Source of the DNA: an uncultured Bacteroidales bacterium | GTDB lineage: Bacteria; Bacteroidota; Bacteroidia; Bacteroidales; F082 | Direction of reading: 5' to 3' | DNA length: 61,569 bases | NCBI GenBank assembly: GCA_946185535.1 | Contig: CAMHJX010000020.1 | Location: 1 to 61,569 of the forward strand | In this document: positions 1 through 12,778 of the stretch, piece by piece | Layout of the letters: the number at the start of each line of letters is the position of its first letter | How positions within the stretch are numbered: the stretch's first letter is position 1 | The notes under the pieces: generated by a model | The model's input: the letters and a program-made list of their open reading frames with translations, nothing else | What the model was told of the DNA's origin: nothing | The model's database searches: none | Translations under genes and position numbers: made by a program

Positions 1-104
1 GTTGATAATCAATCGATAAGAAAAACATGAAATTTTAGCTGTCGAAGTCAGGAAATGAGTTGAAAAACGACTTTGAATTGTGATTTTTATTTCTTGTTTT
101 TTTT

Positions 105-117
105 GCATAATTTATGC
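105..117. promoter_or_regulatory. Perfect 13-base palindrome upstream of the defence operon
   Basis: GCATAATTTATGC reads the same on both strands about the central base. It lies some 60 bases upstream of the -7 box at 179-186, in otherwise AT-rich DNA with no gene (1-223). It is a plausible operator for a regulator encoded elsewhere, but no partner is visible and AT-rich palindromes arise by chance. Confidence 0.25.
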
Positions 118-178
118 GGAATTTGTGTTTAAAATAGGTAAAATCGAGATTTTATATTGTGAAATTGCAAAATAGTTG

Positions 179-186
179 TATTTTTG
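179..186 (+). promoter_or_regulatory. -7 box TATTTTTG for the defence operon
   Basis: TATTTTTG matches the Bacteroidota -7 consensus TAnnTTTG. A TTG at about 157-159 may be the upstream element. It lies 38 bases before the chosen ATG (224) of the ATPase gene, so the in-frame TTG at 176 cannot be the start of a transcript made here. Confidence 0.5.
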
Positions 187-223
187 CATGTCTAAAACGC
201 GAATTCATTTTTTTAGGAATACA

Positions 224-1513
224 ATGATACAAGAGCTTAAAATAAAAAACTTTATGTCGTTCAGGGATGAGGTGACACTCAGTTTCGAAGCGACAAAAGA
301 TAAGACCTTTGAAGATAGCCATATTGTTGAGGTGGCTCCTGGGGTTCGTTTGCTCCGTTTTGCTATGGTTTATGGTGCCAATGCTTCGGGTAAGTCAAAC
401 CTTCTTTATGCGTTAGAATTCCTTCGTAGTTTTGTTTTTGACAAAACAACGGATTTGGAGGAACAAACTGGAACTACTCCATTTAAGTTGGATGCTGTTA
501 CTTCCCAAGAGCCTTCCGAATTTAGCCTGAAGTATTTTCTTGGTGACATCAGATATTGGTATGAGCTTAAGTTGGATCAAAAAAGGGTCTATTTGGAACG
601 GCTGTTTTATTATACTTCTGCGCAACCCACAAAGCTGTTTGAACGAACATGGGAGAGAGGCGAGTCCGTGCTCTATTTTAATCCGGCCGTTGTGAAAATA
701 AGTTCGACTGCTAAAGAAGAACTTTCCTTGAAATGCCTGCCCAATATGTCGTTCTTTGCTGCAAGAGCACAAGTCAATGTGTCTATGCCGGAGATAGATA
801 AGGCAAGAGAGTGGTTCAGAAATGGTGTTATGCCAATCGTTGAGCCTGAAACTGAGATGTTTGAATATGCAAGCGAAAAAATGTTGGATGATGATGGGCT
901 CAAAAAGTATTTGTTGAACTTTGTCAACCATGCTGATTTCAATATCTCAGATGTGAAAACGGATTTGGTCAAAAGACCACTTTCCAAAAGGTTTGTTGAC
1001 ATGATGCTTTTGGACGAAAGCACCCCTGCCAACGTCAAGGAACAGTTGAAAAAGGATACAAGTATTAATAGCGTAAGGACCCAGTTTGTCCATTCTGTCA
1101 GGAATGTTCGAGGGGAAGAAACCTATACATTACCCGCTGGCAGCCAATCAGCTGGCACGATGCGTACCATTGGAATTGAAGCGGGCATCTTTGAGGCCTT
1201 GAACAAACAGGCTTTCCTTTTCATAGATGAAATTGAGTCCTCTTTGCATCCCGATTTGGTGGAGTTTATCATCGAGCAGTTCCTTTCGCAGCACAATAGG
1301 GCGCAATTGCTTGTCACAACTCATTATGATCCCTTGTTAAATACCGTTGGGGATGATCTCATTCGCAAGGATTCCGTTTGGTTTACGGAAAAAGACGAAA
1401 CGGGAAACACCGACCTTTATTCTTTGGTGGAATTCAAGGGATTGAATAGAATTTCATCGTTGCAAAAGGCTTATCGCAATGGAGTCTTTGGGGCATTGCC
1501 GAACATTAAATAA
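224..1513 (+). CDS. AAA-family ATPase, AbiLi/RloA-like (defence)
   Basis: A 429-residue ATPase of the SMC/ABC-like AAA_15/AAA_21 group that pairs with RloB proteins in abortive-infection (AbiL) and restriction-linked (Rlo) loci. Walker A GANASGKSN is at residues 51-59. A signature-like segment (LPAGSQSAGTMR) lies near residue 305. Walker B with FLFIDEIESS (D335, E336) is followed by SLHPD and the H-loop TTHYDP. The reading frame extends upstream to a TTG at 176, but the promoter overlaps that codon, and MIQELKIKNFMSF is the usual family N-terminus, so ATG 224 is chosen. The rloB gene starts 9 bases downstream. It likely senses infection and drives the RloB partner. The family is clear; the trigger is unknown. 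Confidence 0.85.
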   Translation: MIQELKIKNFMSFRDEVTLSFEATKDKTFEDSHIVEVAPGVRLLRFAMVYGANASGKSNLLYALEFLRSFVFDKTTDLEEQTGTTPFKLDAVTSQEPSEFSLKYFLGDIRYWYELKLDQKRVYLERLFYYTSAQPTKLFERTWERGESVLYFNPAVVKISSTAKEELSLKCLPNMSFFAARAQVNVSMPEIDKAREWFRNGVMPIVEPETEMFEYASEKMLDDDGLKKYLLNFVNHADFNISDVKTDLVKRPLSKRFVDMMLLDESTPANVKEQLKKDTSINSVRTQFVHSVRNVRGEETYTLPAGSQSAGTMRTIGIEAGIFEALNKQAFLFIDEIESSLHPDLVEFIIEQFLSQHNRAQLLVTTHYDPLLNTVGDDLIRKDSVWFTEKDETGNTDLYSLVEFKGLNRISSLQKAYRNGVFGALPNIK

Positions 1514-1522
1514 ACCATTCCC

Positions 1523-2116
1523 ATGGCGAGAAAAGCATCCATAAGAATAAAGAAAAGCCCGATACCTACCCTTATTGGGTCGGGTATTACCGAGCAATGG
1601 TATTTCAAGCATTTGAAAACGCTGAAGGATTACCGCGTAAAGATACGCCCTCGCTTTTTTGGAACGGAAACGGCCAATGGCATGGCGAAAAGGATTGAAG
1701 AAGTTCTTCAGAATGATGGCTTTGCCATTTGTGTGTTTGATGCCGATGTGTCAACATGGAATGAGTTGGAACTTAAAAAATGGAATGCCCTGCGGCGAAA
1801 GTACAAGGACAATCCTTCGGTGATGCTTTGCGATTCGCTTCCGTCAATAGAATATTGGTTTTTGCTTCACTACAGAAACACCAGTCGTTATTATGGCACT
1901 TCGCAGGCTGTGATTGAGGATTTGAAGGATTTCATTCCCCAATACGATAAGACTGAAAAGTTCTTGCAGCAGGAGAAATGGGTGGCCGAAATGTTGGATG
2001 ATGGCCGACAGGAAGAAGCTTGTGCAAGGGCAGAGGCTTTTGGAGGTGGGGGTGAGTCCTATACTAATGTGAATAAGGTAATTGATGAGTTAGAAAGGAG
2101 AAGAAAAAATGAGTAG
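1523..2116 (+). CDS. RloB domain protein (AbiLii-like)
   Basis: A 197-residue RloB-family protein, the usual partner of the ATPase immediately upstream. The conserved family features are visible: a GxxTE-like N-terminal motif (GSGITEQWYF, E24), a DxD pair after a hydrophobic strand (CVFDADVS, D73 and D75) and SLPSIEYWFLLH (E110, H116). This arrangement resembles a Toprim-type acidic centre, so the pair may work like an OLD ATPase-nuclease split into two proteins; that is inference. Its 3' end overlaps the TIR gene by 8 bases, which suggests translational coupling. It is full length with no obvious defect. Confidence 0.83.
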   Translation: MARKASIRIKKSPIPTLIGSGITEQWYFKHLKTLKDYRVKIRPRFFGTETANGMAKRIEEVLQNDGFAICVFDADVSTWNELELKKWNALRRKYKDNPSVMLCDSLPSIEYWFLLHYRNTSRYYGTSQAVIEDLKDFIPQYDKTEKFLQQEKWVAEMLDDGRQEEACARAEAFGGGGESYTNVNKVIDELERRRKNE

Positions 2117-2969
2117 TGGTACCTATTTGGACAAAAAGAATAAGTTGTCAAAAGAAATTGCTGAATTAGAGAAGAAAAGAGCGGATTACTCTAAGCAAAT
2201 TGCCGAGAAAAACTCAAAAACCGTCAGCGTACAAAAGTCAATGAAGGGTGCGTCTGCATCTTCTATTATATCGAAACAAAGTCAAATCAATTCATTGAAC
2301 GAAGAGATATCCAAACTTCAAACTAAAATTGCTGATGTTGAAAAAAGAATTGCCCAAAAAAGAGTGGATGAAAACAAAGCATTCCAGCAATACCAAACAG
2401 AATTGGATAGAGAGAATAAGAAAATGCAACAAGAGCAAAAGAAAATAACTGATAGCTATCAAAAGCGCATCAATGAGTTGTCAACCACTTTAAATAGATC
2501 CATTCAAGCGCAAGTTCAACCAGTTTCTACATTGTATTCTCAAATACAAGAAGACGCTACCGAATATGATGTTTTCATTTCTCATGCCCATGAAGACAAA
2601 GAGAGTTTCGTTAATCCTTTTGTTGATGCATTGAAAAAACGAGATGTGAAAGTGTGGTATGATAACGATGAGATTAAATGGGGCGATTCTCTAAGGGCGA
2701 AAATTGATTCTGGTTTAAAGCATTCACATTTTGGAATAGTTGTTATTTCTCGTAGTTTTATAAAGAAAGGTTGGACCAATCATGAATTAGATGGCCTTTT
2801 CAACCTTGAAATGACACAAGGGAAAACTATTCTGCCTATTTGGCATGATATTACTAAAACAGAGGTGCAAAATTTCAGCCCTTCTCTGGCAGGGAAAATG
2901 GCCATTTCAACAGCACTGATGACTCCTGCAGAAATAGCTGATGAATTGGTTAAATTGTTGAATAAATGA
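2109..2969 (+). CDS. Coiled-coil TIR-domain protein
   Basis: A 286-residue protein with two parts. Residues 1 to about 145 are a charged, Lys/Glu/Gln-rich heptad-like region with no tryptophan, predicted to form a long coiled coil. Residues 150-286 are a TIR domain starting YDVFISHAHED (Y153-D163), with KVWYDNDEIKWGDSL, IVVISRSF and the catalytic-type glutamate in TNHELDGLF (E226). Bacterial TIR domains with this glutamate usually cleave NAD+ or make cyclic ADP-ribose signals. The coiled coil could mediate oligomerisation or sensing. The start overlaps rloB by 8 bases and the stop overlaps mod by 4 (ATGA), so it is built into the operon. The gene is AT-rich compared with the 5' part of mod. 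Confidence 0.85.
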   Translation: MSSGTYLDKKNKLSKEIAELEKKRADYSKQIAEKNSKTVSVQKSMKGASASSIISKQSQINSLNEEISKLQTKIADVEKRIAQKRVDENKAFQQYQTELDRENKKMQQEQKKITDSYQKRINELSTTLNRSIQAQVQPVSTLYSQIQEDATEYDVFISHAHEDKESFVNPFVDALKKRDVKVWYDNDEIKWGDSLRAKIDSGLKHSHFGIVVISRSFIKKGWTNHELDGLFNLEMTQGKTILPIWHDITKTEVQNFSPSLAGKMAISTALMTPAEIADELVKLLNK

Positions 2970-4897
2970 AAAAGTTAAATATGGACAAACTAAAACTCCA
3001 AACCCACAACATCGTGGACGAAAACATAAAGAAAATAGCCGAACTCTTCCCCAACTGCCTCACCGAGCGCCTCGACGAGAACGGGAATCCAGAAGTGGCG
3101 ATTGACTTCGACATGCTCCGGCAGGAGCTCTCGAAGGACATCGTGGAAGGCCCCGAGGAACGCTACCAGTTCACCTGGCCCGACAAGCGCAACGCCATCC
3201 GCCTTGCCAACGCGCCGACCACCGACACGCTGCGCCCCTGCCGCGAGGAGAGCGTGGACTTCGACAACACGCAGAACCTCTACATCGAGGGCGACAATCT
3301 CGAAGTGCTGAAACTGCTGCGCGAGAACTACTTGGGGAAGGTGAAGATGATTTACATAGACCCGCCCTACAACACGGGCAACGACTTCGTGTATAACGAC
3401 GACTTCGCACAGACTGCCGGCGACTATGTTCACAACAGCGGGCAGGAGGACGAGGAGGGCAACCGCCTCGTGGCCAATACCGAGAGTAATGGACGCTTCC
3501 ACACCGACTGGCTCAATATGATTTACCCTCGCCTGAAAGTGGCCAAGAACTTGCTGAGCGAGGATGGGGTGGTTTTTATAAGCATTGATGATAATGAGGT
3601 TGAAAATTTAAGACGAATCTGTAATGAAGTTTTTGGTGAGCGTAATTTTTATGCACAAATAGTTTGGCAAAAACGCACTTCTCCTGATGCACGTTTTAAT
3701 CTTGGTGCTGCACATGATTTTATTATTGTATATGCTAGGAATAAAGAATTATTGAAAGATACTTTAAACAAAGAACCCCTTTCAGTTCAACGTTCTTCTG
3801 ATTATAAAAATCCAGACAATGATCCAAGAGGTCCATGGGCTTCTGTTGATATCACTGGTCAAACAGGACATGCTACAAGTAGTCAGTTTTACGAAATTAC
3901 CACTAAAGGCGGAATGAAGATGCGACCACCTCAAGGTAGGTGTTGGGCATTATCTGAAAAGACTTTTTTATCACTTGTTGCAGACAATAGAATATGGTTT
4001 GGCGATGATGGAAATTCTAGACCTCGTCAAAAACGATTTTTATCAGAAAGCGAAGGTGTTAATGCTTGGACATGGTGGGACAATGTTGCTGTTGGACATA
4101 ATCAAGAAGGCACAAAAGATATGAAAGACCTGCTTGGTTCTGGAGATTTATTCACAAATCCTAAGCCAGTTAGACTTCTTTTGCGCATTCTTCGATTGGC
4201 AACATTTAAAGATTCGATTGTCCTTGACTTTTTTTCTGGCTCTGCCACAACTGCCCATGCCGTCATGCAACTCAATGCCGAGGATGGCGGCAACCGTAAG
4301 TTCATCATGGTGCAGTTGCCCGAAGCAACAGATGAAAAGAGCGAAGCATACAAAGCAGGCTACAAGAACATCTGCGAAATCGGCAAGGAACGCATCCGCC
4401 GTGCGGGGAAGAAAATCGTGGAAGAACAAGAAAAGAAACGGATGGAAGAAGGTTTGTTCGCTGGCTCTTCGACAGGTTCAGAGGCCAGGCCGTTGGACAT
4501 CGGATTCCGCGTGCTGAAGCTCGACAGCTCCAACATGCAGGATGTGTATTACTCGCCCGAGCAGTTCAACGAGAACCTTCTCTTCGAGGACAACATCAAG
4601 CCTGACCGCACCGACGAGGACCTGCTCTTCCAAGCCATGATAGAGCTTGGCATTGAGCTTTCGGCCAAGATAGAGCAACGCGAAATCGCGGGCAAGACCG
4701 TCTGGAGCGTCGCCGACAACTACATCATGGCCTGCTTCGACAAGGACGTGAACGAGACCGCCATCACCGAAATTGCCCGCCAGCATCCCTACTACTTCGT
4801 CCTCCGCGACAGTAGCCTCGCCACGGACAACGTAGCGGACAACTTCGAGCAGATTTGGGAGGAGTATAGTAAAGACACTATCAGAAAAATATTGTAA
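2966..4897 (+). CDS. mod: Type III restriction-modification methyltransferase subunit (Mod)
   Basis: A 643-residue beta-class N6-adenine methyltransferase of a type III system. The catalytic motif DPPYNTG is at residues 132-138 and the AdoMet-binding motif DFFSGS at 421-426, the order expected for Mod. The target-recognition region lies between them. Mod methylates the recognition site and is needed for cleavage by Res. The first ATG (2966) overlaps the TIR stop; an in-frame ATG at 2981 (MDKLKLQTHN) matches the usual family start, so either may be used. Base composition changes abruptly: about 2990-3555 and from about 4240 on are GC-rich, while about 3560-4235 is AT-rich, as if the recognition domain was swapped. 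A dispersed-repeat-like segment lies at 4463-4486. The SIR2 gene follows 21 bases later. Confidence 0.93.
   Translation: MKKLNMDKLKLQTHNIVDENIKKIAELFPNCLTERLDENGNPEVAIDFDMLRQELSKDIVEGPEERYQFTWPDKRNAIRLANAPTTDTLRPCREESVDFDNTQNLYIEGDNLEVLKLLRENYLGKVKMIYIDPPYNTGNDFVYNDDFAQTAGDYVHNSGQEDEEGNRLVANTESNGRFHTDWLNMIYPRLKVAKNLLSEDGVVFISIDDNEVENLRRICNEVFGERNFYAQIVWQKRTSPDARFNLGAAHDFIIVYARNKELLKDTLNKEPLSVQRSSDYKNPDNDPRGPWASVDITGQTGHATSSQFYEITTKGGMKMRPPQGRCWALSEKTFLSLVADNRIWFGDDGNSRPRQKRFLSESEGVNAWTWWDNVAVGHNQEGTKDMKDLLGSGDLFTNPKPVRLLLRILRLATFKDSIVLDFFSGSATTAHAVMQLNAEDGGNRKFIMVQLPEATDEKSEAYKAGYKNICEIGKERIRRAGKKIVEEQEKKRMEEGLFAGSSTGSEARPLDIGFRVLKLDSSNMQDVYYSPEQFNENLLFEDNIKPDRTDEDLLFQAMIELGIELSAKIEQREIAGKTVWSVADNYIMACFDKDVNETAITEIARQHPYYFVLRDSSLATDNVADNFEQIWEEYSKDTIRKIL
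4463..4486. repeat. Degenerate copy of the CTTCGACAGG-CTCAGG dispersed repeat inside mod
   Basis: CTCTTCGACAGGTTCAGAGG resembles the 24-base repeat found inside polA (26736-26759) and twice in the LysM gene. It is in frame and encodes GSSTGSEAR, close to the GPSTGSGT peptide of the other copies. It has more mismatches than the others, so the assignment is tentative. Confidence 0.4.
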
Positions 4898-4918
4898 AAC
4901 TATAGAATCATTACAAAC

Positions 4919-5950
4919 ATGACTGAAAGTGATATTTTCAAAAAAATACAAGACATTGTTAATGCCAATCCTGTAATTGTACTTGGCTCAGGAGCATCCA
5001 TTAGTTATGGAATAGCTAGTATGAGCAAATTGTCAGAAGTGCTTTCAGACTTTTTCTCAACTAAAGTATACTCGGATGCAAAAAGTAGCGATGCTGTTTT
5101 TGTTTTTCTTGACAACATTAATACCAAAAAAATGGGGTTGGAAGATGCGCTTTTGGATATTCAAATGCCGTTGCCCGTAGAGAATGATATTAGAGGTTGT
5201 GTATGGAATGAAATCCAAAAGGAAGATGTCAAAGTGTATGAGCGAGTTGTTAATGGTGAGATATTGGCTCTTTCTAATTTACTCGATTATATGGTATATG
5301 ACAGAGCTGATCAAATTGTTAATATTGTTACAACTAATTATGACAGAATTGCAGAATATGCAGTTTCCCAGACAAATGCATATTTAAATACTTGTTTCTC
5401 AAATAAACCAATTGGGACATATGATATTTCTCTTCAACAATGCAAATCACACCCATGCTATGTTGGGAGTGCAAATGTTTTGAAAGTTCACGGCTCACTT
5501 GATTGGTTCGAGAAGGACGGAAAATTGTTTTCTTTTATGAATGTCCGAGATTATCCCAAAGACTATAATCCATGTATTATTACTCCAGGAACAAACAAAT
5601 ATGAGAAAACATCGCAATTGCCATATAGAGATCTCATGCAGCAAATGGATGATGTTTTTAAGTCTACTTCGGGATTTCTTTGCATAGGATATGGGTTTAA
5701 TGATATTCATGTACACCCAAATCTGTTGAGTTATTCTCAAAAGAGAAAGAAACCGATACTTATTGTCACGAAAGACATCACAGATGCTATTCAAAATAAA
5801 GTGATAAATGCAAATACATACCCATATATAATTATATCTGATAACGGGGGCAAAGGCACTTTGATACACAATAGTATTGATAAGGTTCCATTAGAGATTA
5901 ACGGCAAAGATTATTGGAATATTGCTGGATTACTTAAAATCATTAAATAA
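4919..5950 (+). CDS. SIR2-domain protein of a SIR2-HerA defence pair
   Basis: A 343-residue SIR2-like protein. Nucleotide-binding and catalytic motifs are intact: IVLGSGAS near residue 20, TTNYDR with N140, KVHGSLDW with the presumed catalytic H191, and GYGFND at 257-262. Defence SIR2 proteins of this type hydrolyse NAD+ when activated and kill the infected cell or stop its growth. The HerA-type ATPase gene starts 8 bases downstream, the arrangement of the described SIR2-HerA (Nezha) system. The gene is AT-rich, unlike the flanking GC-rich mod end, which suggests a separate origin. It sits between mod and res rather than as a free-standing pair. Confidence 0.87.
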   Translation: MTESDIFKKIQDIVNANPVIVLGSGASISYGIASMSKLSEVLSDFFSTKVYSDAKSSDAVFVFLDNINTKKMGLEDALLDIQMPLPVENDIRGCVWNEIQKEDVKVYERVVNGEILALSNLLDYMVYDRADQIVNIVTTNYDRIAEYAVSQTNAYLNTCFSNKPIGTYDISLQQCKSHPCYVGSANVLKVHGSLDWFEKDGKLFSFMNVRDYPKDYNPCIITPGTNKYEKTSQLPYRDLMQQMDDVFKSTSGFLCIGYGFNDIHVHPNLLSYSQKRKKPILIVTKDITDAIQNKVINANTYPYIIISDNGGKGTLIHNSIDKVPLEINGKDYWNIAGLLKIIK

Positions 5951-5958
5951 CAAATAAT

Positions 5959-7689
5959 ATGGATGATAATCGAATATTTAAATTTCAAAAGCAAGATTCT
6001 ATTGGGTCAATAAATAGTGTTGACACAGGTCTTGCGTATGCGGTAATAAATTCTGATGAGACACTTTCGGCACTGCAAGTTAATCAACTTGTTGCTATTG
6101 AGAGCCCAGAAGCGGGCAAACACATTATTGGAATGATTATCAAAATCTATCGCAAAGCAGATATTAATAATCTGTCAATTGAAGAGTCGGAAGAACTTGA
6201 AGAGGTAGGGGTTTATAACCAAATCAAATTAGTTTTCATCGGGGAATTAAGAGACAAGTTAGGAAATGACCGAAATGTTTTCAAACGCAATGTAAGTAAC
6301 GTTCCAAGAATAAATGCTCAGTGTTATCGAATCGAAGGAGAAGTTTTAACTGATTTGATGCAAAGCATATCCTCGTGCATTAAATCGGGAATACACCCTT
6401 TGTCAATCGGAAAATATTCAATGGATGAATCGTCTGTAGCGTATTTAGACGGCAACAAGTTCTTTCAAAGACATGCAGCTATTGTTGGCTCTACAGGAAG
6501 CGGGAAATCGTATTGTGTTGCCAAGATTATCGAGGAAATGTCTCATCTGAAGAAAGTAAATGCTGTGTTGTTTGATATACATGGTGAATATTCGTCTCCT
6601 GATTTTAAGATGGACGGTATCAAACAGTATAAGATAGCATCTCCTGGGGATTTAGCGACAAAGGACAAGCTGTCTAACGGCATTTTAATGGTTCCTTATT
6701 GGATGCTCAATTATGAAGAAATGCAAGCTTTACTCCTTGATAGAAGCGACCAAAATGCACCGAATCAGGCGATGCTGTTGTCCAAAGAAATAATGATTGG
6801 AAAAGAGAACAAAACAAAGAGTTCCACATATTCTGGTTTGGTGACTTTGGATAGTCCTGTTCCGTACGATTTAAATGAGGTCTTATTAAAATTAAAAGAG
6901 TATGATACTCATTTGGACGAAGGGGCTAAACCAGGCACTACAAAACAGGGTGCATATTATGGAAAACTAACTCGTTTTAATCAGCGCTTAGAAAACAAAC
7001 TTCAAGACAAACGTATGGGATTCATGTTTTCTGTTTCTGACGAAGAGATGAATTTGGATTGGTTGAAGTCATTTTGTCACACCGTAATGGGGGACGACGG
7101 AAGTGTGAAAGTTATTAATTTATCAGAGGTCCCATCTGATGTTTTACCTTTGGTAATCGGTCTTCTTTCACGTATTATTTTTTCCGTTCAACAATGGAGC
7201 GGTCAAGACAAAGCACATCCTGTTGCCTTGCTTTGCGATGAAGCACACTTATATGTCCAGCATTTGGAATCAAGCGATTCCGTCGCGCGAATTGGACTAA
7301 AAAGCTTTGAGAGAATTGCTAAAGAAGGACGGAAATATGGTGTTGGTCTTGTCGTGATAAGCCAAAGGCCATCGGAAGTTAATCGGACGGTATTAAGCCA
7401 ATGCAATAATTTTGTTAGTTTGCGTCTTACAAATGTTGATGATCAAAATGTTATTAAGCGATTGCTCCCGGACAATTTAGGCAATATCGCAGACAACTTA
7501 TCTTTGTTGGATATAGGTGAAGCTATTGTAGTCGGAGATGCGACGCTGTTGCCTTCAAAGATTAGAATTGATGAACCGTCGATAAAACCTTCGAGCCAAA
7601 CCATTCCTTTTTGGGATATTTGGGCTAAAGATAAGTCTTCTCAAGATTTGGATGAGGCTGTTGATAATATGATTAAGCAAAGTAAATAA
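5959..7689 (+). CDS. HerA-family (DUF87) ATPase of the SIR2-HerA pair
   Basis: A 576-residue HerA/FtsK-like ATPase. An N-terminal beta-barrel (HAS-like) region covers roughly residues 1-140. Walker A VGSTGSGKS is at 176-184 and Walker B ALLCDEAH at 423-430. Downstream are a sensor-type segment GLVVISQRP and the DxxVIKRLLPDN region typical of this family. HerA proteins form hexameric rings that move along or unwind DNA. In SIR2-HerA systems the ring binds SIR2 subunits in a large complex, and both nuclease and NADase activities have been reported for such complexes. It follows the SIR2 gene by 8 bases and shares its AT-rich composition, so the two probably moved together. Confidence 0.87.
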   Translation: MDDNRIFKFQKQDSIGSINSVDTGLAYAVINSDETLSALQVNQLVAIESPEAGKHIIGMIIKIYRKADINNLSIEESEELEEVGVYNQIKLVFIGELRDKLGNDRNVFKRNVSNVPRINAQCYRIEGEVLTDLMQSISSCIKSGIHPLSIGKYSMDESSVAYLDGNKFFQRHAAIVGSTGSGKSYCVAKIIEEMSHLKKVNAVLFDIHGEYSSPDFKMDGIKQYKIASPGDLATKDKLSNGILMVPYWMLNYEEMQALLLDRSDQNAPNQAMLLSKEIMIGKENKTKSSTYSGLVTLDSPVPYDLNEVLLKLKEYDTHLDEGAKPGTTKQGAYYGKLTRFNQRLENKLQDKRMGFMFSVSDEEMNLDWLKSFCHTVMGDDGSVKVINLSEVPSDVLPLVIGLLSRIIFSVQQWSGQDKAHPVALLCDEAHLYVQHLESSDSVARIGLKSFERIAKEGRKYGVGLVVISQRPSEVNRTVLSQCNNFVSLRLTNVDDQNVIKRLLPDNLGNIADNLSLLDIGEAIVVGDATLLPSKIRIDEPSIKPSSQTIPFWDIWAKDKSSQDLDEAVDNMIKQSK

Positions 7690-7713
7690 TGTTTTGTTTT
7701 ATATGTTGTGTAG

Positions 7714-7785
7714 ATGAAATTCAAATTCAAAATACAGCAATACCAGACCGATGCAGTGGAAAGCACGGTAAGTATGACCAAATAA
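7714..7785 (+). pseudogene. Relic of the 5' end of res (24 codons)
   Basis: An ATG reading frame of 23 residues, MKFKFKIQQYQTDAVESTVS then MTK and TAA. Its first 20 codons encode exactly the same residues as the first 20 codons of the intact res gene at 9384, with four synonymous base differences. After codon 20 the two diverge. It lies 24 bases after the HerA stop and 34 bases before the AlbA_2 gene. The simplest reading is that res once began here, directly after HerA, and that a segment carrying the AlbA_2 gene plus another res allele recombined in, leaving this stub. A functional leader peptide is possible but less likely. Confidence 0.8.
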
Positions 7786-7819
7786 AAATTGTTTTTGTTG
7801 TCGAAAAAGGGTAAAGAAT

Positions 7820-9394
7820 ATGATCACGAAAGAAGAACTGAAGGAATTGCTTCATAGCACTGAAACCTATCGCGTGGAACGCACAACCTCCCTGAACGAT
7901 ATGGATAAGTTTCAGGAGGCTATTTGTGCTTTCTCAAACGACTTGCCCAATTCAAGGAAGAACGGCTATTTGATATTAGGAGCTTACGACAACGGCACAT
8001 TGTCGGGATTAAAGGTCAATGATGACTTGTTGAAGAAGATTGCCGCCATACGATCGGATGGGAATATCCTGCCCGTACCTGTTATGAGTGTTGACAGGTT
8101 CGTGTTTCCTGATGGCGAGTTATTGGTCGCCGAGGTAACGCCCTCCATGATGCCCCCAGTGCGCTATCGTGGTCGCACATTCATCCGCATTGGCCCGCGA
8201 CGCGACATCGCCACTGAAACCGAAGAACGTATATTGGCCGAAAGACGAACATCGTATATGGCAACGTTCGACACTATGCCTTGCCTTGCCGCCAAGCTCA
8301 ATGATATAGATATGGAGCTGGTACGGAACAAATACATGGAAAAGTTAATTGGCAAGGAACTGCTCGCGGCTGATGGCCGTTCCATTGAGGAACAATTGTC
8401 AGCAGTGGGCATGTATGATACCGAGCATGATTGCCCCACTAATGCTGCTATGGTTTTGTTCGGCAGACATCCACGACGATTTATGCCAGGATTGTATGTG
8501 CAATATGTACGCTTCAAGGGCGAGGACGTGAGCAGTGAAGTGGAAAACGAGATACAGTTGGAAGGCAATTACTGTGAACTGCTGCCTCGTTTGGAATCGC
8601 TGCTGGAATTATCCGTCATCAAGAAGAAGCCTGTGTTCGTCTCTATGTTGCGCGAAGAAATGGTCGGCAACTTCCCCTATACGGCTATCCGCGAGCTGGT
8701 AATGAACGGCTGTATGCACCGCGACCTGCAAAGCAACATGCCCTTACGAATCTATGAGTTTGCTCATCGCCTTGAAATCACGAATGCAGGAGGCTTGTAT
8801 GGCAACGCGCGGCCGGAGAACTTCCCGACAATCAACGACTATCGAAATCCGCTTATCGCCAGTGCCATGAAGACGATGGGCTATGTGAATATGTTCAATC
8901 GAGGTGTGGGACAGGTGCAAGCCGATCTGAAAAAGAACGGAAACCCGCCTGCCGAGTTTGTGGTGGATCTCATAACGGCATTTAGAGTGAATGTGGAGGA
9001 TGTCCCCAAATCGCTTCCCGATGTCACAAGTCTGTCACAAGTCTTGTCACAAGATGAGCAAAAAGATGCAAGTAATGTCGTAAATACAGATTTGTCCCAA
9101 GCTGTCCTAAGCTTGTCCCAGGTTTTGTCCCAAGCTTGTCCTAAGATGTTTTTCAAGTATGTGGAAGATGCCATTGCCGTTATGCGTGCAGTAGAACAAG
9201 CTGGTTTACCCATGACTGCGCTCATGAAAGTTGTCAACGAAAAGAACAGGAACAGATTCAAACGCAACTTGTTGTCACATCTGATAGAAGCAGAATTGGT
9301 CGTTCCTACGCTGACCGATACACCAAGTAGTCCAAACCAACGATATGCCCTTACGGAGAAGGGCAAAGAATTGCTGAAGCCTTATGAAATTTAA
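7820..9394 (+). CDS. AlbA_2 (Schlafen-like) / HATPase_c_4 putative DNA-binding ATP-binding protein
   Basis: A 524-residue protein of the family often annotated as RecG-like transcriptional regulator. An N-terminal AlbA_2 domain (about residues 1-130; NGYLILGAYDNG, PVRYRGRTFIRIG) is followed by a GHKL-type ATPase region (about 240-360; IRELVMNGCMHRDL, RLEITNAGGLYG). A Gln/Ser-rich linker has two LSQVLSQ segments near residues 400-440, and a C-terminal winged helix ends RYALTEKG. Such genes are frequent next to restriction systems and may regulate them or act as accessories; the exact role is not known. The stop lies inside res (11-base overlap, res ATG at 9384), so the two are coupled. The gene probably arrived with this res allele. 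Confidence 0.8.
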   Translation: MITKEELKELLHSTETYRVERTTSLNDMDKFQEAICAFSNDLPNSRKNGYLILGAYDNGTLSGLKVNDDLLKKIAAIRSDGNILPVPVMSVDRFVFPDGELLVAEVTPSMMPPVRYRGRTFIRIGPRRDIATETEERILAERRTSYMATFDTMPCLAAKLNDIDMELVRNKYMEKLIGKELLAADGRSIEEQLSAVGMYDTEHDCPTNAAMVLFGRHPRRFMPGLYVQYVRFKGEDVSSEVENEIQLEGNYCELLPRLESLLELSVIKKKPVFVSMLREEMVGNFPYTAIRELVMNGCMHRDLQSNMPLRIYEFAHRLEITNAGGLYGNARPENFPTINDYRNPLIASAMKTMGYVNMFNRGVGQVQADLKKNGNPPAEFVVDLITAFRVNVEDVPKSLPDVTSLSQVLSQDEQKDASNVVNTDLSQAVLSLSQVLSQACPKMFFKYVEDAIAVMRAVEQAGLPMTALMKVVNEKNRNRFKRNLLSHLIEAELVVPTLTDTPSSPNQRYALTEKGKELLKPYEI

Positions 9395-12300
9395 GTTCAA
9401 AATACAACAATACCAGACCGATGCAGTGGAAAGCACGGTGAGTGTGTTCGCGGGGCAGCCTTCGAAGACCAATGCGCAGTACCGCCGCGACTTGGGCAAG
9501 CAGAAACAGCAGTTGAAAGCCGAGTTTGAGGAGGAGTATGTGGGCTACCGCAATGCCGATGTGGAACTCAACGCTAACCAGTTGTTGGAGAACATCCACC
9601 ATCAGCAGGTGCAGAACGACATCCCGCTGAGCAAGTCCTTAGCGGCCACCAACGGCCTCGGTGCCTGCTCGTTGGATGTGGAGATGGAGACGGGCACGGG
9701 CAAGACCTACGTCTATATCAAGACCATGTTCGAGATGAACAAACGCTTCGGCTGGTCGAAGTTCATCGTGGTGGTGCCCAGCATCGCCATCCGCGAAGGC
9801 GTCTACAAAAGCTTCACCATGCTGGAGGAGCATTTCATGGAACTCTACGGCAAGAAAGCCCGCTATTTCATCTACAACAGCGCCAACCTCACCCAAATCG
9901 ACTCGTTCAGCAGCGATGCCAGCATCAACGTGATGATTATCAACGTGCAGGCGTTCAACACCTCGTTCAAGGAAGGTGCGGCCAATAAGGAGGCGCGTAT
10001 CATCTACTCCAAACGCGACGATTTCCAAAGCCGTCGTCCCATCGATGTGATTGCCGCCAACCGTCCTATCATCATCATGGATGAGCCGCAGAAGATGGAG
10101 GGCGAGGCCACGCAAAGGGCCTTGCGTAACTTTAAGCCGCTGTTTGTGCTCAACTATTCCGCTACCCACAAGACTTCGCACAACTGCATCTATGCGCTGG
10201 ATGCCTATGATGCCTACAAGCAACGCTTGGTGAAGAAAATCCAGGTGAAGGGCATCACGGCGCAAAACCTGTTGGGCACGCAGAGTTACATCTATTTCGA
10301 CAGCGTCATCCTTTCGAAGAACCACGCACCGGTGGTCAGGCTTGAAATCGAGGTGAAAGGCGCCGCTGCCACCCGCCGACAACTTTGCAAGTTCGAGCAA
10401 GGCGATTCGCTGTTTGCCATTTCGCAACTTCCTGCATATAAAGACTTTGTGATTACCGAAATCAATCCCTTGACGAATACTGTCTATTTTCAAAACGGCA
10501 AGCAACTGCGTCAGGGTGAGGTGATGGGCGATGTCAGCGAGAAAGCCATCCAACTGATACAAATACGGGAAACCATCAAGTCGCATTTCGAGAAGGAGAG
10601 AGCCTTGTTCCAGCAGGGCATCAAGACCCTTTCGCTGTTCTTCATCGACGAGGTGGCCAACTACAAGAGCTATGATGCGGACGGAAACGAGGTGCAAGGC
10701 CCGCTGTGGAAAATGTTTGAAGACGAATACAACCGCTATCTGAACGAGAACCTGACCCTGTTTGAGGACGACTATCAGCAATACCTGCGTCGTTTTTCGG
10801 CTGCGGAAGTGCATAATGGTTATTTCTCCATCGACAAGAAAGGCCATTCAATTGATAGTGAGGTGAAACGCGGCAAGGATACATCGGATGACATCTCGGC
10901 TTACGATCTGATTCTAAAGAACAAGGAACGCTTGTTGAGTTTCGATGAACCGACACGTTTTATCTTCTCCCATTCCGCCTTGCGCGAAGGTTGGGATAAT
11001 CCCAATGTGTTCCAAATCTGCACCTTGCGTCACGCCAACTCCAGCACGGCGAAACGGCAGGAGGTAGGTCGCGGTTTGCGTATTTGTGTGGATAACGACG
11101 GCAATCGCATGGACAAAGAACGTTTGGGTGATGCCGTACACGACACCAACAAACTGACTGTCATCGCCAACGAGAACTACAGCACTTTTGTCGATGCCTT
11201 GCAGAAGGAAACCAAAGACACTTTGCGCGAACGTCCGACACAAGCCACGGTCGATTACTTCAAAGGCGTTACCGTCAAAGTGGGTGAAGAGAAGCACACC
11301 ATTTCGGAGCAGGAGGCTGCTAGCATCGTCAGTTATTTGTTCGACAACGACTATATCGACGAAAAGGGCAATATCCTGCAAGACTATCCTGCCGACATGG
11401 AAAAAGGCACTTTGGCCCCGATGAGCAAGAAACTTCAACCCATTGAGGAACAGGTGCACAAACTCATTCAGAGTATCTTTGATCATGCCGCTTTGGATGA
11501 CATGGTAGAAGATGCAAACGGCAAGGCAGAAGTGGTGAACGAGCGTTTGAACGACAATGCCGAGAAGAAGGAATTCAAAGCCTTGTGGAACGAAATCAAC
11601 CACCGCTATGTATATACTGTGCATTACGACAGCGAGGAACTGATACAGAAGGCCATTGCCGCCATCAACAGCGAGTTGAGTGTCACTCAGTTGAAGTATG
11701 TAGTGACCACAGGCACGCAAGGCGATGATGAACTGGACTTCACCGGTGAGCAAAGCACGCGGACAAGGGAGATGCGTGATGTGTCAACCAGCAATGTGCC
11801 CTACGACTTGGTGGGCGACATCGCCAAAGCAGCCACGCTGACCCGCCGCACGGTCACTCGCATTCTGAAGGGCATTCAGCGGTCGAAGCTGTACATGTTC
11901 AAGAACAACCCTGAAGAGTTCATTCGCAAGGTAAGCCATATCATCCGTGAGCAGAAAGCCACGATGATTGTGGAGCACATCAGCTACAATCGCACTGAAA
12001 ACCAATACGATTCCGACATCTTCACCAAGGAGAAGAGCCGCCAAACGGTGGATAAGGCCTACGAAGCAAAGAAACACATTCTCGATTATGTGTTCCCCGA
12101 CAGCCAAGGCGAGCGCACTTTTGCCGAAGACTTGGACAAAGCGGATGAAGTGTGCGTCTATGCCAAATTACCGAGATCTTTCCAAATCCCGACACCAGTA
12201 GGCAACTACGCTCCCGACTGGGCCATTGCCTTCAACGACAACATGGGCGTCAAGCATGTGTTCTTCATCGCCGAAACCAAAGGCTCGATGGATTCCATGC

Positions 12301-12434
12301 AACTGAAAGGCGTGGAAAAGGCAAAGATTGATTGCGCGAAGAAGCTGTTCAACAACTTATCCACATCCAATGTCCGTTACCACGAAGTTGATAGTTACCA
12401 AGCTTTGTTAGAGGTAATGAGAGCGATGGATTGA
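9384..12434 (+). CDS. res: Type III restriction subunit (Res), SF2 helicase-nuclease
   Basis: A 1016-residue Res subunit that translocates or diffuses on DNA with Mod and cleaves between two unmethylated sites. The helicase core has Walker A TGTGKT (103-108), motif II DEPQ (233-236), motif III NYSATH, and motifs V/VI in SALREGWDNPNV and QEVGRGLRI. The C-terminal PD-(D/E)XK nuclease is intact: PDW with D945, then AETKG with E964 and K966. Length matches the family. It is the last gene of the operon. The 5' end is duplicated at 7714. Composition is like the 5' and 3' parts of mod and unlike the AT-rich SIR2-HerA insert, which fits mod and res being an original pair. Confidence 0.94.
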   Translation: MKFKFKIQQYQTDAVESTVSVFAGQPSKTNAQYRRDLGKQKQQLKAEFEEEYVGYRNADVELNANQLLENIHHQQVQNDIPLSKSLAATNGLGACSLDVEMETGTGKTYVYIKTMFEMNKRFGWSKFIVVVPSIAIREGVYKSFTMLEEHFMELYGKKARYFIYNSANLTQIDSFSSDASINVMIINVQAFNTSFKEGAANKEARIIYSKRDDFQSRRPIDVIAANRPIIIMDEPQKMEGEATQRALRNFKPLFVLNYSATHKTSHNCIYALDAYDAYKQRLVKKIQVKGITAQNLLGTQSYIYFDSVILSKNHAPVVRLEIEVKGAAATRRQLCKFEQGDSLFAISQLPAYKDFVITEINPLTNTVYFQNGKQLRQGEVMGDVSEKAIQLIQIRETIKSHFEKERALFQQGIKTLSLFFIDEVANYKSYDADGNEVQGPLWKMFEDEYNRYLNENLTLFEDDYQQYLRRFSAAEVHNGYFSIDKKGHSIDSEVKRGKDTSDDISAYDLILKNKERLLSFDEPTRFIFSHSALREGWDNPNVFQICTLRHANSSTAKRQEVGRGLRICVDNDGNRMDKERLGDAVHDTNKLTVIANENYSTFVDALQKETKDTLRERPTQATVDYFKGVTVKVGEEKHTISEQEAASIVSYLFDNDYIDEKGNILQDYPADMEKGTLAPMSKKLQPIEEQVHKLIQSIFDHAALDDMVEDANGKAEVVNERLNDNAEKKEFKALWNEINHRYVYTVHYDSEELIQKAIAAINSELSVTQLKYVVTTGTQGDDELDFTGEQSTRTREMRDVSTSNVPYDLVGDIAKAATLTRRTVTRILKGIQRSKLYMFKNNPEEFIRKVSHIIREQKATMIVEHISYNRTENQYDSDIFTKEKSRQTVDKAYEAKKHILDYVFPDSQGERTFAEDLDKADEVCVYAKLPRSFQIPTPVGNYAPDWAIAFNDNMGVKHVFFIAETKGSMDSMQLKGVEKAKIDCAKKLFNNLSTSNVRYHEVDSYQALLEVMRAMD

Positions 12435-12778
12435 CACCTACCCTAAAACTCCGTGAGACCCATATCTAAACTTTTTTATACCCACCTCAGAAAAAGTTTA
12501 GATATGGGTGTAAACTATTTTAGAGGTGGGGGCTGTGTTTTTTTGTTTTTATAAACACACCAAATGCTGCTTCGGCGACTTCTCACCTATGAAACGCTGA
12601 CTCGACTGGGACTACTAGATATTGAGTATCAGCGAATAAAACTATCACCCATTACCCTTCACATTCTTGAACACAAACAACACGGATTGCCCTGATACAA
12701 CCATACAAAAAGTAGAGCCACAATAGTGACTCTACTTATTTTTATCCCTGAAAATCAGACAAATCCGCGTTCGCAATC
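12435..12778. other. Gene-free spacer at the right edge of the defence island
   Basis: A 344-base spacer between the convergent res and pheS genes. It holds a long hairpin with a possible pseudoknot (12458-12530) and then AT-rich DNA with no supported gene. No tRNA, integrase or attachment-site duplication was seen at this edge. Confidence 0.6.
12458..12530. terminator. Long hairpin with pseudoknot potential after res
   Basis: ACCCATATCTAAACTTTTTT (12458-12477) pairs with AAAAAGTTTAGATATGGGT (12491-12509), a stem of about 19 pairs with a short loop. The loop octamer CCCACCTC (12481-12488) is exactly complementary to GAGGTGGG (12523-12530) downstream, so an H-type pseudoknot could form. It sits 24 bases after the res stop and is probably the operon terminator, possibly for both convergent transcripts. 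Confidence 0.55.

Follow-up and report, generated by a model that had tools for sequence, protein, structure and literature searches.

The window, by which the whole analysed stretch of 61,569 nucleotides is meant, is contig C20 of the genome of an uncultured Bacteroidales bacterium, from base 1. At 224..12434 it carries eight ORFs, all open and all co-directional on the + strand (Table 1). ORF translation, Pfam and PADLOC returned the same genes, domains and strands that an earlier note on this DNA had given, and the recomputed gaps of 9, −8, −4, 21, 8, 24, 34 and −11 bases were identical to its values. The hairpin that it had placed behind the last gene is real, with arms at 12437–12476 and 12491–12530, a folding energy of −40.8 kcal/mol and a z-score of −6.0. 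Ten large ORFs farther downstream (window 18578–59663) were assigned by Pfam to glutamine synthetase, DNA polymerase I, peptidase S46, MBOAT, DEAD helicase and others; one ORF was matchless, and no defence family was found among the Pfam matches of the ten.

Table 1. Features at the 5′ end of the window. Slot A denotes the stretch before mod, and slot B the stretch between mod and res.
Feature	Position	Strand	Evidence
IS terminal inverted repeat, 13 bases	40..52	+	reverse-complement repeat near the end of contig C81
9-bp target duplication AAATGAGTT	53–61	+	identical 9-mer near the end of contig C81
Last DUF4391 codons, cut by the IS; remainder on contig C81	53..83	+	L134 alignment
TAnnTTTG box, promoter-like	179–186	+	45 nt upstream of the ATPase ATG
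Slot A, ABC/OLD-like ATPase (AAA_21, AbiLi; weak AriA similarity)	224..1513	+	Pfam, PADLOC, sequence match
Slot A, RloB/AbiLii with TOPRIM-like motifs E24, D73, D75	1523..2116	+	Pfam, PADLOC, motif script
Slot A, coiled coil + TIR (PDC-S66)	2109..2969	+	Pfam, PADLOC, AbTIR match
Core, type III methyltransferase subunit Mod	2966..4897	+	Pfam, PADLOC
Slot B, SIR2 NADase-like subunit (SIR2_2)	4919..5950	+	Pfam, PADLOC, solved-structure match
Slot B, HerA ATPase	5959..7689	+	Pfam, PADLOC, solved-structure matches
Res-start relic, open 23-codon mini-ORF	7714..7785	+	copy of the first ~63 nt of res
Slot B, AlbA_2 (Schlafen-like) + HATPase_c_4 + winged-helix protein (SLFN_AlbA_2)	7820..9394	+	Pfam, model matching
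Core, type III restriction subunit Res (helicase + endonuclease domain)	9384..12434	+	Pfam, PADLOC
Terminator-like hairpin, then T run	12437..12530	+	folding computation

The type III restriction–modification (R-M) subunits are a Mod with DPPY and SAM-binding motifs (PADLOC E-value 1e-241) and a Res with helicase and endonuclease domains (4e-290). The SIR2 and HerA genes are adjacent, belong to anti-phage families and have intact motifs (9e-218 for HerA). The ATPase adjoins an RloB-type partner, as in AbiL (4e-79 for AbiLi and 3e-16 for AbiLii), and the TIR protein, a PDC-S66 candidate NADase, has its catalytic glutamate aligned to that of a known NAD hydrolase. NCBIfam matches for the operon proteins were all below the cut-offs of that collection. 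The claim that all catalytic motifs are intact held for the most part: a script found DPPY in Mod, GSTGSGKS and DEAH in HerA, GSGAS/TTNYD/HGS in SIR2, W...EL in TIR, E24 and D73-x-D75 in RloB, and TGTGKT and DEPQ in Res. GANASGKS of the ATPase and PD...ETK of Res were seen by eye in the translations, the scripted patterns for both giving nothing, and one scripted AlbA_2 motif pattern had no match in the AlbA_2 protein.

In comparison with solved proteins, the SIR2 subunit aligned to a SIR2-family protein across TTNYD and HGS, with 8yhx among its relatives of solved structure, and HerA aligned to several solved HerA proteins, among them 9c1m and 8xau. The best solved sequence match of the TIR protein was the NAD hydrolase AbTIR, with W-T-N-x-E-L aligned and a glutamate that we take to be catalytic from its role in AbTIR. 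RloB E24, D73 and D75 were conserved in six aligned sequences; the predicted RloB model was of low confidence (pLDDT 58.6), and its fold matches in the TOPRIM comparison were at background level. The ATPase matched AriA profiles, and AriA chains weakly (E 0.004). A weak model of the AlbA_2 protein matched 3lmm and, more poorly, the tRNase domains of Schlafen and SAMD9, consistent with a putative Schlafen-like nucleic-acid enzyme or regulator.

The start of the unit at 224, as given earlier, was not borne out, as the first bases of the window belong to an IS copy cut by the contig edge, and directly behind this copy a DUF4391 gene ends. Window positions 53–330 matched locus L134 at 8635–8909 (95% identity), where DUF4391 ends at 8665. 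The sole DUF4391 match of the genome at E 0.001 (94% identity) lies on contig C81 (4,017 bases), beside the best HKD/SNF2 helicase match of the genome (96%); four weaker helicase matches lie elsewhere. The 13-base IS repeat was found at six places in the genome, including the starts of C4, C20 and C73 (reversed control, 0), and the inverted repeat and 9-base duplication identify the C81 end and the C20 start as carrying the two ends of an insertion sequence. The assembly was thus broken by a multi-copy IS inside the last DUF4391 codons, and we infer the adjacency of C81 and C20 from the IS ends, the duplication and synteny. The full cluster would then comprise ten genes, with the helicase and DUF4391 upstream of the eight. 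The −7 box described upstream of the operon is present, and its position is kept among three relatives with the ATPase–RloB pair (−45 in L134 and L008, −51 in L129). With the helicase and DUF4391 upstream, however, it falls inside the ten-gene cluster, before the slot A cassette, and boxes of this kind are no rarity: up to 12434 the + strand has 6, against 3.8 expected from base composition.

For comparison, a genome scan with Mod supplied 80 loci, the best by Mod similarity among at least 583. A Res search of 173 family genomes gave matches in 39, and 32 stretches were taken, mostly around Res and some around HerA or TIR. Together with the window, Mod preceded Res in 98, and removal of 7 duplicates left 91 loci. 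ORFs were grouped by single-linkage BLAST clustering, and one member per cluster was annotated. The ORFs came from a simple script, which places their starts and the outer boundary of slot A only approximately; slot A is truncated where contigs end.

A recurrent frame of helicase, DUF4391, slot A, mod, slot B and res emerged, occurring in Bacteroidales and some other bacteria of the set. Where a locus extended more than 5.5 kb ahead of Mod (n = 67), the DUF4391 cluster was present in 53 and the helicase cluster in 50 (annotated as DUF4391 and HKD+Snf2 from one scanned member each). A literature search of partial coverage for DUF4391 with restriction found no paper. The contents of the frame varied widely. 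Slot B had 43 distinct contents, the empty state of 28/91 loci included, and 106 of the 148 ORF clusters in the 91 loci were singletons. The 24 non-core clusters with at least three members were confined to slot A (15) or slot B (5) or occurred in both (4). Other cargo included Fic, RhuM, AlbA_2 (two clusters), TPR, Abi_C/AbiJ, YhcG, ATPase+RloB pairs and, in part, a Ppl-like protein; several cargo clusters had no family match (one member each scanned). The set thereby points to candidate defence genes: its 91 loci hold 146 clusters of non-core ORFs, with some flanking or spurious ones among them.

The earlier note had put the eight genes forward as a candidate for one undescribed system. A conserved system is not supported: the same order occurred in none of the 90 other mod+res loci, which are the best 80 of at least 583 by Mod similarity plus the family loci, and the line-up was met in this genome alone, an outcome that the note itself had named as refuting; the chassis recurs, the line-up does not, and the eight-gene set is one assortment among many. 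What deserves attention is less this single line-up than the design behind it, in which a restriction operon combines a shared core with two slots for cargo. The note had also read the overlapping junctions as a sign of coordinated use. In the 91 loci, the median intergenic gap was 3.5 nt (n = 182, 10 gaps exceeding 150 nt) and junctions were equally tight whatever the cargo, so that tightness, being general in these operons, is no proof that these modules work together. None of the 59 ORFs of at least 100 aa lying wholly between Mod and Res was on the opposite strand. Certain pairings recurred: the ATPase cluster was followed by RloB in 11/11 loci carrying it, TIR overlapped Mod in 3/3, AlbA_2 cluster c3 was last before res in 16/17, and AlbA_2 cluster c16 was first rather than last in 3/3.

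Exchange of the cargo was observed at one chromosomal site. pheS lies behind Res, as in the window, only in genome G129 (locus L137; 98.8% protein identity), a sister species, among the 91 loci, 80 of which hold at least 1.5 kb after res. The two genomes share 91.6% DNA identity over helicase–DUF4391 and 89.5% from res through pheS. The ends of Mod are 87% and 94% identical, and its middle, where the specificity part is expected, is poorly aligned or unaligned apart from one 174-base piece at 77%; window positions 3650–4206 are left unaligned. Neither slot aligns, with a core of 87–94% DNA identity around them: slot A of G129 holds a different ATPase gene and further genes, and slot B a TPR protein. 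More generally, 23 of 35 preselected loci have a partner whose Res is at least 86% DNA-identical, and in the 113 such pairs slot B was identical in 5, shared at least one cluster in 36 and shared none in 77. Res distance was uncorrelated with that of Mod (r = 0.02 for its C-terminal and 0.08 for its N-terminal part) over a narrow range of Res identity.

Usable alignments of the res start were obtained for 230 of 253 possible pairs. Where the last cargo differed, homology started within −10 to +3 nt of the res ATG in 178/180 pairs, 14 of the 180 involving an empty slot B; where the last cluster was the same (n = 50), it started at the ATG in 19 and further upstream in 31. Homology starting at the ATG means that the cargo abuts the res start and does not by itself locate crossovers. 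The window's own cargo has relatives in different loci: ATPase–RloB is 96% DNA-identical to L134, TIR with the N-terminal part of Mod 83% to L139, and the relic with most of AlbA_2 82% to L008. The Mod–SIR2 and HerA–relic junctions occur only in this draft assembly (86 contigs), and misjoining there is conceivable.

The relic between HerA and AlbA_2, noted earlier, was confirmed: positions 7714–7776 duplicate the opening ~63 nt of res, with agreement at 53/57 positions. With each locus's own res as reference, such copies were found in 10/91 loci (39–55 of 57 positions); the maximum of the reversed-reference control over the 91 loci was 36/57, the next best locus scored 34, and L080 at 39 is borderline. 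In seven loci (the window, L126, L130, L128, L139, L140 and L008) the relic sits in slot B, immediately ahead of the final cassette, which is one of three kinds of AlbA_2 gene or a TPR-cluster gene. These seven relics start −4 to +24 nt from the preceding stop with an intact ATG (in L126 the ATG homologous to that of L130, instead of the scripted TTG), stay open for 17–33 codons and end −14 to +34 nt from the next gene start. The L142 relic has no cassette behind it and its start reads GTA; those of L019 and L080 lie between two tandem Mods. Such a second copy has the look of a trace left when something inserted at the start of res. A piece made of another gene joined to res would enter just inside the resident res and leave the old res 5′ end upstream, one rule that would cover all relic placements. 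Such relics may serve as a sequence footprint for tracing defence-module exchange inside the operon.

It is rather likely that the relics are passive traces of past insertions and neither docking nor coupling elements. The relic and AlbA_2 are common to the window and L008 as one block, and most relics are young and differ little from the res starts of today, so selection is not needed to explain their open frames. On the other side, relics precede four unlike cassette types and occur between tandem Mods, the diverged L140 relic is still open, and the cassette-less L142 relic lacks its ATG (one case each). That the res start is the docking site of an integrase-free cassette array, in which gene-plus-res pieces recombine at the res 5′ end and the relics act as 17–33-codon leader ORFs that keep cargo-to-res translational coupling and later as homology arms, we consider unlikely. 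Were it true, the operon would resemble an integron without an integrase, with type III restriction constant and abortive-infection modules variable.

The contexts of SIR2–HerA were examined beyond the 91 loci. The closest relative found, in G134 (86/94% protein identity), lies in a 20-kb stretch with no Mod or Res, and the type III locus of G134 (L125) carries a TPR-cluster gene instead of SIR2–HerA. The family and order searches gave 17 HerA places, at least 6 of which, the window among them, have R-M genes next to HerA. An N6_N4 methylase is nearby in G044, G165 and contig C80 of G032, with ResIII genes too in G044 and G165. The SIR2–HerA pairs of G082 (L154) and G518 (L174), both on reverse strands, are embedded in type I operons, with HsdM, HsdS and HsdR around them; the operon of G082 also lodges an AlbA_2 gene. 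The remaining 11 places had no relative of the window's Mod or Res, their neighbours being mostly unscanned, and in some of them the HerA partner is other than SIR2. The sole other pair among the 91 loci, a distant SIR2_2 + HerA at L043:5171–8706 (Firmicutes), sits in slot A, suggesting that SIR2–HerA can occupy either slot. The R-M neighbourhoods, L043 and the G134 pair without Mod or Res show that SIR2–HerA often resides in R-M loci, of more than one type, and is also found without R-M. The window's pair resembles the known SIR2–HerA system (GAO_19) in having both proteins adjacent, with relatives of solved structure, but here it lies inside a type III operon, between mod and res. According to one report, SIR2/HerA of S. 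thermophilus lie between or downstream of R/M systems, and the pair protects when cloned (PMC11514479). As a separate observation, the oriented stretch 1902–5067 of L177 (reverse strand) holds a HerA (35%) followed directly by an AlbA_2 protein 55% identical to that of the window; no relative of Mod or Res was found in this stretch, and the two genes are a possible pair.

Taken from gene content and alignments, the locus is probably a type III R-M operon that serves as a chassis for interchangeable defence cassettes, kept for co-expression. Slot A here holds the ATPase–RloB pair, in an AbiL/PARIS-like layout, and TIR, and slot B holds SIR2–HerA and AlbA_2; some cassettes would arrive joined to a res copy. 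Mod and Res would restrict unmodified phage DNA as the first line, and when restriction fails the cargo would act as separate abortive-infection layers. From what is known of the families, TIR and SIR2–HerA would deplete NAD+, and RloB, a putative TOPRIM-type nuclease, would act on nucleic acid. A layered defence with predicted NAD-depleting effectors is plausible by analogy with PrrC and PARIS. What holds the modules together may be shared expression and shared transfer, without their forming a single machine; the loci amount to a natural test of whether the back-up modules need restriction. The empty slot B in 28/91 loci counts against the chassis reading, and the repeated pairings (TIR–Mod, c3–res and SIR2–HerA by R-M genes) allow for functional coupling beyond a pure carrier.

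A coordinated eight-gene system, in which Mod/Res, ATPase–RloB, TIR, SIR2–HerA and AlbA_2 are mutually dependent, would account for the co-direction and overlaps, for the recurrent adjacency of TIR to Mod and of c3 AlbA_2 to Res, and for SIR2–HerA beside R-M genes in at least 6/17 places. This last count makes the chassis reading slightly weaker and the single machine slightly stronger. Mutual dependence is nevertheless very improbable, given that the order is absent from the 90 other loci (the best 80 of at least 583 and the family loci), that a close SIR2–HerA relative occurs without Mod/Res in G134, that unrelated cargo is packed as tightly and that all cargo is replaced at the same site in G129. 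Chance accumulation of defence genes in a hotspot, with an unselected arrangement, fits the great variety of the cargo and its many singleton clusters; it is improbable in view of the uniform orientation of the internal ORFs, the short gaps and the different vocabularies of the two slots.

Separate but co-expressed layers are the most economical reading, and a guard link between restriction and cargo is possible. In such a link, the ATPase–RloB pair, and perhaps other cargo, would monitor the restriction enzyme and be triggered by phage inhibition of Mod/Res, so that chassis and cargo would be linked through anti-restriction sensing. We hold this only tentatively. The AriA profile matches, the weak AriA chain similarity and the constant ATPase–RloB pairing speak for it, whereas the low confidence of the RloB model, its background-level fold matches and the absence of the pair from most of the 91 loci speak against it. 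Further points in its favour come from two publications. RloB occurs in type I R-M operons and in AbiL and is related to OLD TOPRIM domains, and a related pair of ATPase and OLD-type nuclease has the AriAB layout (PMC10440598). A review describes both PrrC, which is housed within a type IC locus, and PARIS, which reacts to Ocr, as restriction guards; it also mentions R-M accessory genes that are proposed as toxins (PMC12707154).

With regard to known systems, the window's R-M genes are like other type III systems in having full-length Mod and Res, the expected motifs and strong PADLOC type III scores, and unlike them in the 4.5 kb of cargo between mod and res and in the helicase and DUF4391 upstream. 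The ATPase–RloB pair shares its two-gene layout with AbiL and PARIS (ATPase and TOPRIM-type partner) but has weak similarity to AriA chains, and its nuclease fold is putative. Accessory genes inside R-M operons are already known for type I. Extra genes inside type I operons, such as RloB and the PrrC of ecoprrI, are mentioned in PMC10440598 and PMC12707154, where Miller 2005 is cited; in contrast, the present locus is of type III, with two slots, several complete modules and res-start relics. Among the titles and abstracts that the literature searches listed, which is weak evidence of absence, none described type III mod/res loci with such slots, and the two-slot type III form with res-start relics was not encountered.

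Some of the other loci have features of their own. The c4 TPR/coiled-coil proteins of slot B (14 members, e.g. L128:12771–15589 and L137:13729–15225) include several copies that open with an apparent signal peptide by eye (e.g. MKLKYLAIGLMMLFCLNVFGQQ), and an exported protein would be odd in a restriction operon. The c7 protein of slot A, mostly ~600 aa, is last before Mod in 8 loci (L129:10750–12540 and 7 others); the scanned member matched nothing in Pfam, nor in PADLOC at E 1e-8. Tandem Mods with a truncated res start between them are present at L019:10001–14319 and L080:7958–11865, as if a mod–res insertion had superseded a specificity gene.
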